Source: [Candidatus Thermochlorobacteriaceae] bacterium GBChlB
Lineage (GTDB): Bacteria > Bacteroidota > Chlorobiia > Chlorobiales > Thermochlorobacteraceae
Direction of reading: 5' to 3'
Length of the DNA stretch: 32,402 nt
NCBI GenBank assembly: GCA_000724175.1
Contig: JPGV01000007.1
Span: 68,021 to 100,422 of the forward strand
A program made the position numbers and the translations under genes. How positions within the stretch are numbered: position 1 is the first letter of the stretch; each line of letters starts with the position of its first letter. Shown here one piece after another: positions 17,281 to 23,133 of this stretch. Below the pieces are notes generated by a model. That model had not been told where the DNA came from and ran no database searches. It saw nothing but the letters and a program-made list of their open reading frames with translations.

Positions 17281-17409
17281 ATGTGGGATAGTCGACGAAA
17301 ACGACGAAAACGACGAAAACGACGAAAACGACGAAAATCTGTCTCGGCAGAAACCGCAGCCGAGCAATCTGGGTGGGCAGAAGTCGCCGCCGCTTTTGCC
17401 AAACGATAA
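17281..17409 (+). CDS. Possible small basic protein with five RRK repeats
   Basis: From the ATG at 17281 an open frame of 42 codons reads MWDS, then Arg-Arg-Lys five times, then SVSAETAAEQSGWAEVAAAF, ending AKR before TAA. The basic block is exactly the 9-bp tandem repeat at 17293-17337. The frame lies between the kinase and gvpA, in the same direction, and ends 31 bases before gvpA. It may be a real small protein, a leader peptide or a chance frame; it has no Shine-Dalgarno site, but neither do its neighbours. I do not recognise the sequence. Confidence 0.3.
   Translation: MWDSRRKRRKRRKRRKRRKSVSAETAAEQSGWAEVAAAFAKR
17293..17337. repeat. Five-copy perfect 9-bp tandem repeat upstream of gvpA
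   Basis: CGACGAAAA is repeated five times without a mismatch over 45 bases, ending 103 bases before the gvpA ATG. Perfect short repeats like this can change copy number by slippage. Here that would alter promoter or leader spacing in front of the main gas vesicle gene, or the length of the small basic frame. Confidence 0.95.
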
Positions 17410-17647: not shown

Positions 17648-17767
17648 CTTGTCGGCATACGACTTCTTGCTATCTTGTCCTTCGTTGGCGCAGCAATACA
17701 GTGCGTCCAAGCACAGGATACCAACGGAGTCAGCCGTGTTTCAACTGCCGATGAAGATGAGCTAAGT

Positions 17768-18457
17768 ATGAGCCTAAGTATGAACAATTTTCCTATCGAT
17801 AGCGACTTGTATAAAGTCGCTTTGGAAGATTTTTTCGCCGCGCTAAGCGGCTCGCGCCACGTGGTTCAAGCGTGGCAAGAAGCCTCGCGCCTTGCTGAAA
17901 CCGCACAGCGAGACTGCGATGTGGCATTGCGCGAGACCTTGGCGCAGACGCGCTCGGTGCGTTACAAAGATTTCGACCGCGTGATGAGCGTGGCTTTCGG
18001 CGCGCAAAAAAAACGCGAAGCCGAACTCGGCGCGTCGGTGAACGCCTATCTCGATGAACAAGAAGAACTCTCGCGCACAATTCTCGATGAACTTGCCGCG
18101 CTGCGCAGCACGATGGCTGAACAGCGGACGAAAGAAGTTCACGCGATGATGAAAAAATTCTCCGAACTCCAGCGCAAGCGGCGAGACGAATTGCTGGCGG
18201 CGCTTCGAGAATTCAAAACAGAGCAACAAGACTTTTTACACAAACTCCGCGACTGCACCGTGCGCGCCAGAGAGGTGCGATTGCAAGATGTCAAGGCAAT
18301 GTTTGAAAACTTTCGGCAAGCGCAAGAAGAGCGGCGCGCTCAGGCAGAACTGCGGCGCAAAGAGGTCGCGAAATTACTGGCAGGATTTAGACAAAAACGA
18401 CTGAACGAACACTCAACGAACAACGGCGCAAAGCCGTCAATTCACAACAAACCGTAA
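17768..18457 (+). CDS. gvpC: GvpC-like repeat coiled-coil protein, first copy
   Basis: This 229-residue protein is highly charged and helical. Its position directly behind gvpA and its repeats fit GvpC, which binds the outside of the vesicle and strengthens it. Three related segments are visible: VRYKDFDRVMSVAFGAQKKR (from about 64), VHAMMKKFSELQRKRRDEL (from about 123) and VRLQDVKAMFENFRQAQEER (from about 170). They share the pattern V-x-x-M-x-x-x-F-x-x-x-Q-x-x-R, with a spacing of about 50-55 residues. Cyanobacterial GvpC repeats are about 33 residues, so this is a different register. Two in-frame ATGs (17768 and 17780) are each inside a copy of CTAAGTATGA. An upstream open frame to a TTG at 17675 is probably untranslated. 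Confidence 0.7.
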   Translation: MSLSMNNFPIDSDLYKVALEDFFAALSGSRHVVQAWQEASRLAETAQRDCDVALRETLAQTRSVRYKDFDRVMSVAFGAQKKREAELGASVNAYLDEQEELSRTILDELAALRSTMAEQRTKEVHAMMKKFSELQRKRRDELLAALREFKTEQQDFLHKLRDCTVRAREVRLQDVKAMFENFRQAQEERRAQAELRRKEVAKLLAGFRQKRLNEHSTNNGAKPSIHNKP

Positions 18458-18464
18458 ACCGACT

Positions 18465-19043
18465 ATGAGCCTGACCATGAAGGAACTCGCCGAGCGCGTC
18501 TATCTGGCCCGCATGGAGCGCGCCAACAACGCCGCTGCGCGGTCTCAAACCGTGATGAAAATGAGAAACGACACAAATCAGTTGCGGAAAAGATTTCAGG
18601 ACGAGATGCGACAGATACATCTTGAAACTGAGCGACGCGCCAAGCAGATGTCGGAAAAACGAGCGCAATACAATCAGGCACGCATAAAAGACACAGCGGA
18701 ATTGATGAAAACCATTCGCGAGAAAATGGCGGAAATCGCAAACGACATCAAAGAAGACGCACAACGGACGCGCAATATGATGCAATACGCCAAAGACCAA
18801 CGCATGATTCACCACGAAGAATTGATGAGCGACATCAAGAACGACCTCAAGCGCCAACGCGATGAAATCGAAGCCAATCGCAACGCCGTCCAACAAACGC
18901 TCGCCAAATACGCCAAAGAGCGCGCGGAAGGTAGAGCCGCATGGGCGCAACTGACCACAACACTGCCCAACGCACCATTCGTGAGCAACACCGCTCCAAA
19001 GACACAGTTTTCCATCACCATTCCATTTTCAAAGCCAGAGTAA
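18465..19043 (+). CDS. GvpC-like coiled-coil protein, second copy
   Basis: This 192-residue protein starts seven bases after the first GvpC-like gene. Residues about 5-165 are a long charged helical region with related segments such as ARIKDTAELMKTIREKMAEI and QRMIHHEELMSDIKNDLKRQ. The C-terminal about 25 residues are different (APFVSNTAPKTQFSITIPFS) and could be a binding tail. Position and composition suggest a second outer-scaffold protein for the gas vesicle, made together with the first. No strict GvpC signature is visible, so the assignment rests on context. A general coiled-coil accessory protein is the alternative. Confidence 0.6.
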   Translation: MSLTMKELAERVYLARMERANNAAARSQTVMKMRNDTNQLRKRFQDEMRQIHLETERRAKQMSEKRAQYNQARIKDTAELMKTIREKMAEIANDIKEDAQRTRNMMQYAKDQRMIHHEELMSDIKNDLKRQRDEIEANRNAVQQTLAKYAKERAEGRAAWAQLTTTLPNAPFVSNTAPKTQFSITIPFSKPE

Positions 19044-21066: not shown

Positions 21067-21600
21067 ATGAACAAAGAAAACACATCAGGACAGAGCGGAG
21101 ATCTGTTCAGCAATCTGCTTGGCGGCATTGAAAAACTCGTCAAACTCGCCGAAGACCTGCAAAAGAACAGCGAAAATATCTCCAAAGAAGGCGAGGTCGA
21201 TTTAAGCAGCATCAAAGACGGGTTGAAAGCAAATTACAGTTTTACCGTCAAAACAGCGGCGGGTAGTGCGTCAAGCAACGCCGCGTCGGCGCGTCCCAGA
21301 ACCCGTCCCGCAAACAAAAGCGCGGCGAAATCGGACATCGTTGTGCCGCGTGAAATCGAACTCGACGTTGATGTGTTCGAAGAAGCCGATGCCATTAAAA
21401 TTTTTGCACAATTTTCCGGCGTTGCCGACCAAGATATTGCCGTGGCGCTGAACGGCGACATTCTGGAAATCGATGCCAGCAGCGCACAACAGCATTTCCG
21501 AAAAGAAATTCTGCTCTCAAAAAAAGTAACTGGCAAGATTGACCGCGCGTTCAAAAACGGCGTGCTGGAACTGACCCTGCCGCTTGCCGCCGCATCGTGA
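21067..21600 (+). CDS. gvpH: Gas vesicle protein GvpH (Hsp20-type)
   Basis: This 177-residue protein has an N-terminal GvpH segment (LFSNLLGGIEKLVKLAEDL, LKANYSFTVKT), a low-complexity Ala/Ser/Arg linker (about 62-85) and a C-terminal alpha-crystallin-like domain (from PREIELDVDVFEEADAIKIF to NGVLELTLPLA). GvpH is a chaperone-like accessory protein; in haloarchaea it works with GvpI and helps keep gas vesicle proteins soluble. The end of the gene is peculiar: the 35 bases at 21553-21587 recur at 22139-22173, on the other side of the toxin-antitoxin pair. The present end reads LPLAAAS; the distal copy would give LPLAS. Confidence 0.9.
   Translation: MNKENTSGQSGDLFSNLLGGIEKLVKLAEDLQKNSENISKEGEVDLSSIKDGLKANYSFTVKTAAGSASSNAASARPRTRPANKSAAKSDIVVPREIELDVDVFEEADAIKIFAQFSGVADQDIAVALNGDILEIDASSAQQHFRKEILLSKKVTGKIDRAFKNGVLELTLPLAAAS
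21553..21587 (+). repeat. 35-bp direct repeat, proximal copy (within the gvpH 3' end)
   Basis: The 35 bases encoding the end of GvpH (KNGVLELTLPLA) are identical to 22139-22173. The repeat flanks a 551-bp segment holding the toxin-antitoxin pair. Confidence 0.95.
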
Positions 21601-21619
21601 ACGAAACTTTGACGTTGCT

Positions 21620-21832
21620 ATGTCAACCGCCGACATCGTCAATATGAGCGTCGCAGAACGCCTTGCGCTGATTGAAGAAATCTGGCGAACACTCGAGCAG
21701 CAACCGGACGCGCTGCCGATAACGCCCGCCCAAAAAGCCGAACTCGATGCCCGCTACGCCGAGTTTCTGGAAAATCCGACCGAAGGAAATACTTGGGAAG
21801 ATGTCAAAGCGCGAATCCAAAAGAAAAGGTGA
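21620..21832 (+). CDS. Antitoxin of a ParE-type module (addiction module component, TIGR02574-like)
   Basis: This 70-residue protein begins MSTADIVNMSVAERLALIEE and contains WRTLEQQPDALPITPAQKAE, then LDARYAEFLENP and a Trp-rich end (NTWEDVKARI). This is the typical layout of the small antitoxins paired with RelE/ParE toxins. It should bind and neutralise the toxin encoded next door and may repress its own promoter. The stop TGA overlaps the GTG start of the toxin, so translation is coupled. An in-frame ATG at 21584 would lie inside gvpH and is unlikely. Confidence 0.9.
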   Translation: MSTADIVNMSVAERLALIEEIWRTLEQQPDALPITPAQKAELDARYAEFLENPTEGNTWEDVKARIQKKR

Positions 21833-22131
21833 ATAAAAACTACTCGGTTATTATGCGCCCGCAAGCCGAATTGGATATAGACGAAGCCTATCGTTGGTAT
21901 GAAATGCAACGCGATGGACTGGGAGATGCTTTTTTACAATCCGTATCAGACGCACTTGAACGCATTAAAGAAAATCCTGATGGATACCAATTAATTGACG
22001 GTCAAAAACGACGGGTTCTGCTTCACGGGTTTCCTTATTCTTTGTTTTTCACAATTGTAGATGAAACGGTGGCTGTGTTGGGCTGTTTTCATGCAAGCAG
22101 AAACCCGACCGTATGGAAAAAAAGGCGCTGA
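21829..22131 (+). CDS. RelE/ParE family toxin
   Basis: This 100-residue protein starts at GTG inside the stop of the antitoxin. Family features are MRPQAELDIDEAYRWYEMQR near the start, the RVLLHGFPYSLFFTI core and the C-terminal VLGCFHASRNPTVWKKR, typical of ParE-like toxins (ParE acts on gyrase, RelE on ribosome-bound mRNA). The target cannot be decided from sequence. The gene looks complete. The module separates gvpH from the arsA-like gene, and its 3' end is followed within eight bases by a copy of the gvpH terminus. Confidence 0.92.
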   Translation: MNKNYSVIMRPQAELDIDEAYRWYEMQRDGLGDAFLQSVSDALERIKENPDGYQLIDGQKRRVLLHGFPYSLFFTIVDETVAVLGCFHASRNPTVWKKRR

Positions 22132-22138
22132 CATAAAG

Positions 22139-22180
22139 AAAAACGGCGTGCTGGAACTGACCCTGCCGCTTGCATCATAA
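22139..22180 (+). pseudogene. Duplicated 3' end of gvpH (distal 35-bp repeat plus stop)
   Basis: Bases 22139-22173 are identical to 21553-21587 in gvpH. The next seven bases complete GCA TCA TAA, so in frame the fragment would encode the GvpH terminus ending LPLAS. No start codon or upstream gvpH sequence accompanies it. It is a remnant of the gene end left on the far side of the toxin-antitoxin pair, 14 bases before the arsA-like gene. Confidence 0.9.
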
Positions 22181-22194
22181 CCACAGTCGTTCAA

Positions 22195-23133
22195 ATGACG
22201 ACGCTGTTTTCAAATCCCGACCTTCGGCTGGTCATCGTCGGCGGCAAAGGTGGCGTGGGCAAAACCACCTTTTCTTCCGCGCTGGGCATCTCGCTTGCCG
22301 AGACATTCAAGACGCTGGTGGTTTCCACGGACCCCGCTCATTCGCTCTCCGATAGCTTCGAGCAACCCATCGGCGACCGCATCGCGCCAATCGACGGCGT
22401 AAAAAATCTCTTCGCCTTCGAACTCAATGCGGAACGCGCGTTTCGAGAGTTTATGAACACGCATGACGCCGACCTGCGACGCATTTTGGACAGCTCGACA
22501 TACCTCGACCAAAGCGACGTCGATATGTTCATGCAACTTGCGATGCCCGGCATGGACGAAGTAATGGGGCTGAAAACCGTCGCCGACCTCGTCGAGCAAA
22601 ATCATTACGACAAATACATCATCGATACCGCGCCAACGGGACATGCGTTGCGATTGCTGTCTATGCCCGACCTGTTAGACGCTTGGGTAAAAGTCTTGGC
22701 GCAACTGCGGTGGAAGTATCGAAAAGTTGTTGAGACCTTCTCTGGGAGCTATTCGCCCGATAGCGGCGACGACTTGCTCCTGAGCCTTAAAAAAACCGTC
22801 AAGCGCATTGAGGCACTGTTGAAAGACCCAACGCGATGCGAATTTTTGCCGATAACGATTCCGACGCAAATGGCACTTGCCGAAACAGAACGATTGGTCA
22901 ACTCGCTTTGGAAATACGGCGTGTCGGTCAAACGCTTGGCGGTCAACAACGTGCTGACGGCAAGCGGCGCGGACGCGGTTTTTATAGAGAAGCGGCGAGA
23001 GCAACAGACATATCTCAAACAAATCAGCGCGGCGTTTCCGACATTGGAGAAACTGCAAATTCCGATGCAGGCAAGCGAAGTGAAAGGCGTGCAAAAACTC
23101 CGTGCGTTTATGGCGACGGTTGCACCAATTTAA
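22195..23133 (+). CDS. ArsA/Get3-like ATPase of the gas vesicle cluster
   Basis: This is a 312-residue SIMIBI ATPase. It has the deviant Walker A GGKGGVGKTT (16-25), switch I DPAHSLSDSF (from 46) and switch II DTAPTGHALRLL. There is one ATPase half rather than the two of arsenite-pump ArsA, and the CxxC zinc motif of eukaryotic Get3 is absent. No arsenic genes are nearby. Its place in the gas vesicle run suggests a chaperone that handles hydrophobic GvpA-type or membrane-active proteins, by analogy with Get3. It overlaps the convergent TPR lipoprotein gene by 26 bases. Confidence 0.9.
   Translation: MTTLFSNPDLRLVIVGGKGGVGKTTFSSALGISLAETFKTLVVSTDPAHSLSDSFEQPIGDRIAPIDGVKNLFAFELNAERAFREFMNTHDADLRRILDSSTYLDQSDVDMFMQLAMPGMDEVMGLKTVADLVEQNHYDKYIIDTAPTGHALRLLSMPDLLDAWVKVLAQLRWKYRKVVETFSGSYSPDSGDDLLLSLKKTVKRIEALLKDPTRCEFLPITIPTQMALAETERLVNSLWKYGVSVKRLAVNNVLTASGADAVFIEKRREQQTYLKQISAAFPTLEKLQIPMQASEVKGVQKLRAFMATVAPI

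Follow-up and report, generated by a model that had tools for sequence, protein, structure and literature searches.

A toxin–antitoxin module between two copies of the gvpH gene end in a Thermochlorobacteraceae genome, and its probable import through the end of a neighbouring gene

A locus of [Candidatus Thermochlorobacteriaceae] bacterium GBChlB bears on the question of how small toxin–antitoxin (TA) modules pass from one chromosome to another when no transposase or integrase carries them. In the window, that is, the whole stretch of 32,402 nucleotides that was analysed (contig JPGV01000007.1), a TA pair stands between the gas-vesicle gene gvpH and an arsA-like gene and is bracketed by two copies of the gvpH 3' end. 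A displaced gene end of this kind is a scar from which one can read where the insertion took place, on which side the anchor lay and, through the comparison of the two alleles, the route of recombination.

The gvpH gene (21067–21600; like the antitoxin, toxin and arsA-like genes, on the forward strand) encodes an Hsp20-like protein of 177 amino acids matching PF05455 (GvpH, E = 9.7e-05, above the Pfam cut-off), and its apparently rebuilt 3' end reads LPLAAAS TGA. It is followed by an antitoxin gene of the Unstab_antitox type (21620–21832), whose product of 70 amino acids (PF09720, E = 6.4e-16; TIGR02574, E = 2.3e-16) has the length of the antitoxins in related modules, and by a ParE/RelE-type toxin gene (21829–22131, 100 amino acids) with a PF05016 match over the full domain (E = 5.8e-08). 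The toxin start is a GTG overlapping the antitoxin stop, with an alternative ATG at 21853; the nearest solved chain to the toxin is ParE2 (8c26_A, E = 0.0019), and its relatives reach an identity of up to about 44%. The arsA/GET3-like ATPase gene (22195–23133; PF02374, E = 2.6e-74; TIGR00345) is the native right neighbour of gvpH. With its adjacent genes, overlapping stop and start, and matches to PF09720, TIGR02574 and PF05016 above cut-off, the 551-bp insert is a predicted type II TA module of the Unstab_antitox/ParE kind. The first-pass annotation of this DNA, made from the letters alone, had held that the 551 bp carry a ParE-type module and nothing else. This was borne out, the open reading frames of the insert comprising the TA pair without any other gene, recombinase or transposase. 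The repeat search found no inverted repeat flanking the insert, and a transposon or insertion sequence was ruled out on these two grounds. Upstream of the gas-vesicle cluster a tandem 9-bp repeat, CGACGAAAA, occupies 17293–17340, and the two proteins encoded just before the gas-vesicle genes (17675–18457, 260 amino acids; 18465–19043, 192 amino acids) are without an NCBIfam match.

The two stretches 21553–21587, inside gvpH, and 22139–22173, behind the toxin gene, had been described as identical, the distal one still running into an in-frame stop. They do form an exact direct repeat (35 of 35 bases), and in the gvpH frame the distal copy continues as GCA TCA TAA (22172–22180), outside any sizeable open reading frame. 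The copies enclose a spacer of exactly 551 bp at a copy-to-copy spacing of 586 bp, and they are the longest non-tandem repeat in the window, the runner-up dispersed repeat measuring 16 bp. With up to three mismatches allowed, the 35-mer was found at just two sites in the 3.05-Mb genome, both of them gvpH ends, and the reversed 35-mer, used as a control pattern, at none. Past base 35 the proximal tail (21588–21600, through the TGA) reads GCC GCC GCA TCG TGA against GCA TCA TAA in the distal one; both end in Ala-Ser-stop and they differ by two G/A changes and a 6-nt in-frame indel. The similarity thus probably runs on through both stop codons (LAAAS-TGA and LAS-TAA), with the proximal tail probably allelic to the distal tail. 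Since the tails share Ala-Ser-stop, the duplicated unit was taken as the gvpH end through its stop, 35–47 bases, with tails that have diverged. The toxin stop lies 7 bp upstream of the distal copy, which extends through TCA TAA (22139–22180); these 7 bp, CATAAAG (22132–22138), form a novel joint, as read from the letters, that links the stop of the toxin gene to the gvpH end which was displaced, and would be the illegitimate joint in the model preferred below.

Which of the two ends is the original one was judged from the neighbouring gene and from relatives. The survey of the gvpH locus covered 61 genomes, 24 of which gave matches, and 20 loci were taken, one being the window itself and 19 belonging to relatives. 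In the window, arsA starts 14 nt past the distal stop and 594 nt past the proximal stop; in relatives of family f4, which belong to the same order, the arsA-like gene directly follows gvpH, 8–12 nt past its stop, and an overlap of gvpH and arsA is seen in the f2 relative. The gvpH products of the three nearest relatives (45–50% identity) terminate in LILAV, LWLSV and LILEV, a common LxLxV end of the same length as the distal LPLAS. Because the spacing to arsA resembles that of the relatives and the length of the distal end equals theirs, the distal copy is, on sequence grounds, the original gvpH end, and the module split gvpH from arsA, as had been proposed before. Two findings which the first-pass annotation had named as speaking against its reading were looked for, namely both gvpH ends in module-free relatives and a module fixed at gvpH across the lineage. 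The relatives show a single end, with a second gvpH end downstream in 0 of the 19 loci, and the module stands at gvpH in no relative (0/19). The empty gvpH–arsA site is seen at the level of genes and not of nucleotides, the nearest relatives being 45–50% identical; genome scans with the gvpH and toxin proteins found no same-genus or close relative. The expectation that the same module would lie at other gene ends of this genome was not supported, since there is one PF09720 locus only and the five other ParE loci found are without a bracketing repeat.

The reading that we prefer, with a probability of roughly 0.6, is that the gvpH–arsA junction received a type II TA module by a one-sided or single-crossover import, in which homology was confined to an anchor at the 3' end of gvpH. 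The incoming DNA would have carried a gvpH end (the LAAAS-TGA allele) followed by the TA pair; its left side would have been exchanged homologously with the recipient gvpH, and its right side joined illegitimately, 7 bp past the toxin stop, to the recipient gvpH, some 35 bp ahead of the last codons that the two have in common. This product would result from a linear donor with a single anchor as well as from a circularised donor with a single crossover, and the recipient's old end (LAS-TAA) would be left behind beside its native neighbour arsA. Because the gene end arrived together with the module, gvpH would have been intact at once. The repeat, the intact module, the distal copy in its native context, the module-free gvpH–arsA pair of relatives and the like anatomy with empty sites at other genes are observations; which donor was involved at gvpH, how the events followed one another and by which route recombination took place we infer from them. 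The same Ala-Ser-stop in both tails is to be expected of two alleles and would be a coincidence if the left end of the insert were unrelated DNA; the 35/35 identity, together with differences confined to the tails, fits a recent two-allele import without proving that route. An anchor of 35–47 bp is short for RecA, and the crossover could have lain further left inside gvpH. The genome carries a gene of the ComEC type for DNA uptake; as to the source, a plasmid donor was rejected, the best plasmid toxins being just 44% identical. The GC3 value of the toxin gene (21829–22131) is 0.38 and that of the antitoxin gene (21620–21832) is 0.59, matching the surrounding genes, so that the pair is possibly a mosaic module. 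Its persistence is probably due to addiction, loss freeing the toxin, and not to a service to buoyancy; the direct repeats would still permit clean loss of the module. The first-pass annotation had suggested that the module could stabilise the buoyancy locus, and the relatives that have gvpH are without the module.

A sister site at the 3' end of bchY (chlorophyllide reductase, TIGR02015) is the best resolved of the sister cases. In genome G313 a PIN module comes after bchY, and behind the module stand 67 bp of a second bchY end with its stop; this second end continues into the terminator that empty-site species have directly after bchY (short matches, 88.9–94.4% identity). Over 718 bp the module segment shares 94.7% identity with that of G025, where the same module directly follows bchY. 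Compared with G025 and with the empty sites, one homologous and one illegitimate junction are seen in G313, the latter immediately behind the toxin stop (7 bp behind it in the window). The two bchY copies of G313 differ at six positions, all six synonymous, when 4.3 non-synonymous differences would be expected under decay of a duplicated end (P = 0.0002); both ends must therefore have been under coding constraint while diverging in two lineages. By this pattern the G313 copies are to be regarded as alleles from two lineages that were later joined, and not as a decayed target duplication. Of five sister cases, one showed a strong and one a moderate synonymous bias, the bias in the other three falling short of significance, and the combined Fisher P of about 2e-4 comes mostly from bchY of G313 and from G367. 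A 31-bp bchY-like stretch to the right of the TA genes in G025 was not used, as it may be a chance match in a TonB-like fragment. In G290 the same PIN module (L251), compared with the nearly clean empty site of G018 (L253), stands about 100–140 bp downstream of bchY and is 91–92% identical. In G235 (L264/L265, C29:36234–36673) an exact 112-bp duplication of the bchY 3' region has no TA genes between its copies and an apparently disturbed reading frame; a module-free duplication or an assembly error are both possible.

These data weigh on the strongest rival, in which both copies derive from the recipient by a long target duplication and the LAAAS tail is merely the left end of the insert. It would give the same geometry as observed; the long, variable kind is known for restriction–modification genes and has been tied to TA modules by analogy, the 35/35 identity suits a recent duplication, and the likeness of the proximal tail could be due to chance (0.1–10% by our estimate, depending on the counting method). 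The G313 differences are nevertheless all synonymous, with a module segment contiguous with the bchY end of the donor-like species, and the differences in the window tails are likewise of the synonymous or in-frame type. The identity in the window is itself neutral on the origin of the copies, and the sister-site copies differ as two alleles do. A target duplication is thus considered unlikely at gvpH, while retaining an appreciable share of the probability.

A second site, in genus g9, lies at the 5' end of a ferredoxin-like gene. A ParE module lies just upstream of this gene in G367 and in G025, a single-contig genome. Beyond the module there is a piece of the 5' part of the gene, which in G367 spans 109 bp at 81% and in G025 has decayed to a 26-bp match; module and fragment are both absent in five relatives that have the ferredoxin-like gene with its arsR neighbour. 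By alignment, the native leader (about AAATATTACATCACGGAGATATTC before the ATG) is present in the empty-site species and ahead of the remnants and is missing ahead of the intact gene. A different module, Phd/YefM and PIN (Phd/VapC), splits this gene end in G290, where leader and 5' fragment likewise lie beyond the module; this module (L142, 482–1803) occupies the end that holds ParE in other species. With a PIN-type module in G290 and ParE in G367 at one gene end, two TA types have entered there with the same footprint, and the site looks like a TA hotspot.

The frequency of such brackets was assessed on 80 relatives of the toxin, with about 10 kb for each, a bracket being defined as a direct repeat within 400 bp on each side and the controls as same-size windows from the same loci. 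ParE modules were bracketed in 16 of 80 cases (20%) against 32 of 4605 control windows (0.7%), and a replicate with PIN toxins gave 6 of 59 modules against 25 of 3388. In a smaller run with one rule for all families the counts were 8/27 for ParE, 2/26 for PIN and 0/26 for GNAT acetyltransferases. Most brackets were dispersed repeats or integron-like arrays (L062, L063, L067, L078, L079, L095, L117 and others) and were not counted as gene ends, so that part of the enrichment comes from the surroundings in which TA modules reside. Elsewhere in the phylum, ParE-type modules stand within arrays of attC-like repeats (TAACGACC..GCGCATAACGGGCGCGGAG; L063, L079, L047, L049 and L054). A mechanical gene-end filter was passed by 3 of 80 modules and 2 of 4605 control windows, and the gene-end cases were read one by one beyond this filter. 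Duplicated host-gene ends were found at bchY (3'), at the ferredoxin-like gene (5', twice, with two TA types), at a flippase-type gene (3'; 127 bp, 81%; L091) and at an OYE-family gene (5'; 205 bp, 88%; L217/L290). A 29-bp gene-start repeat in G021 (L111) is a weak case, and the 3' end of an aminotransferase gene around a PIN module (L319) was excluded from the clean cases, neither copy being joined to a complete gene.

The recurrence of this anatomy in other genomes, including the single-contig G025, also stands against an assembly chimera, in which a strain with the TA pair behind gvpH would have been fused at 22132–22139 to a strain without it, doubling the gene end. The genome is indeed a draft of 51 contigs, and the tails resemble two strain alleles; ordinary reads nevertheless have no difficulty in resolving a 35-bp repeat at 586-bp spacing, the repeat is far from the ends of its 126.5-kb contig, and completeness is 100 with contamination 0.4. 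We regard such a chimera as quite improbable. Somewhat less credence still is given to a partial tandem duplication of the gvpH end that was filled by the module later, the alternative already offered in the first-pass annotation. Two ordinary steps would suffice, and the TA-free duplication in G235 provides a parallel; the scheme, however, requires that a second event by chance struck between the two 35-bp copies, an empty duplicated gvpH end is found in no relative, and the TA-free bchY and ferredoxin-like sites other than that of G235 are without a remnant. A dedicated site-specific element rebuilding its target gene (an integron cassette or integrase element) is very improbable, for although related ParE modules occur in integron-like arrays elsewhere (L063, L079), no recombinase is encoded in the insert, the 35-mer is unique to gvpH in the genome (the cassette identity being ruled out by these two facts) and the repeats found at the other genes show no relation in either sequence or length. 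Of the earlier proposal that the module came with a gene end restoring gvpH, similar to elements that rebuild their target, the import with the gene end therefore gains support from the sister loci (bchY in G313; ferredoxin-like in G367 and G290) with empty sites in relatives and is the best-supported idea, while the likeness to a dedicated element is unsupported, host recombination being favoured as the route.

The same footprint around other TA modules in related bacteria suggests that such modules gain entry through recombination at a neighbouring gene's end, by which this gene is rebuilt and its former end stays as a remnant, and the bchY site argues that at least some of these footprints are two-allele joints and not duplications of one target. 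It is tempting to speculate, tentatively and at less than even odds, that solitary chromosomal TA modules of several families spread without mobile elements by using conserved neighbour-gene ends as recombination anchors, each import rebuilding the gene and leaving a fossil end. If this is true, fossil gene ends record the events and the mobility of TA modules becomes readable from genomes. As the footprint occurs at several genes with empty-site relatives, its frequency could be determined over large numbers of genomes, and transformation offers a means of testing it.

Compared with other type II modules of the ParE/Unstab_antitox kind (TIGR02574), the gene order, the overlap, the sizes and the Pfam domains are alike; the module itself is no different, and what is unusual is its setting in a gas-vesicle operon and its bracket. 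In the literature searched, which does not prove absence, no paper was found on such a footprint for TA modules, nor one joining TA modules, illegitimate recombination and partial duplication. The closest known pattern is insertion with long target duplication, as reported for the restriction–modification genes of H. pylori (Nobusato et al. 2000; PMC1643837, PMC3031569, PMC4978471), and a TA review cites this only as an analogy (PMC2654758). Common to both are a selfish addiction-type unit without a transposase, a long direct repeat of host sequence and polymorphism between relatives; here the cargo consists of a type II TA pair, the repeated sequence is the end of a gene and rebuilds this gene, and the copies at bchY appear to be alleles of two lineages, which points to donor recombination over target duplication. 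To the pattern known from restriction–modification genes the present cases add two toxin families, several host genes and empty-site relatives.

The preferred route also resembles homology-facilitated illegitimate recombination, with which it would share one homologous anchor, one illegitimate joint and a short foreign insert. In E. coli, circularisation of the donor with a single crossover duplicates 109–950 bp of the homologous locus, this single-crossover variant duplicating part of the anchor (PMC3240628). The classical events usually produce deletions and show 3–10 bp of microhomology (PMC3240628), whereas here it is sequence of the recipient that has been doubled, with a joint only a short way past the stop of the toxin gene. 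A one-anchor insertion has been proposed for the effector–immunity modules of the Vibrio T6SS, where, in the effector–immunity and orphan immunity arrays, a toxin/immunity unit likewise stands beside a conserved anchor with the old gene end pushed downstream (PMC5361080). In the Vibrio case the toxin gene itself is displaced; at gvpH the anchor is an unrelated host gene, which is rebuilt.
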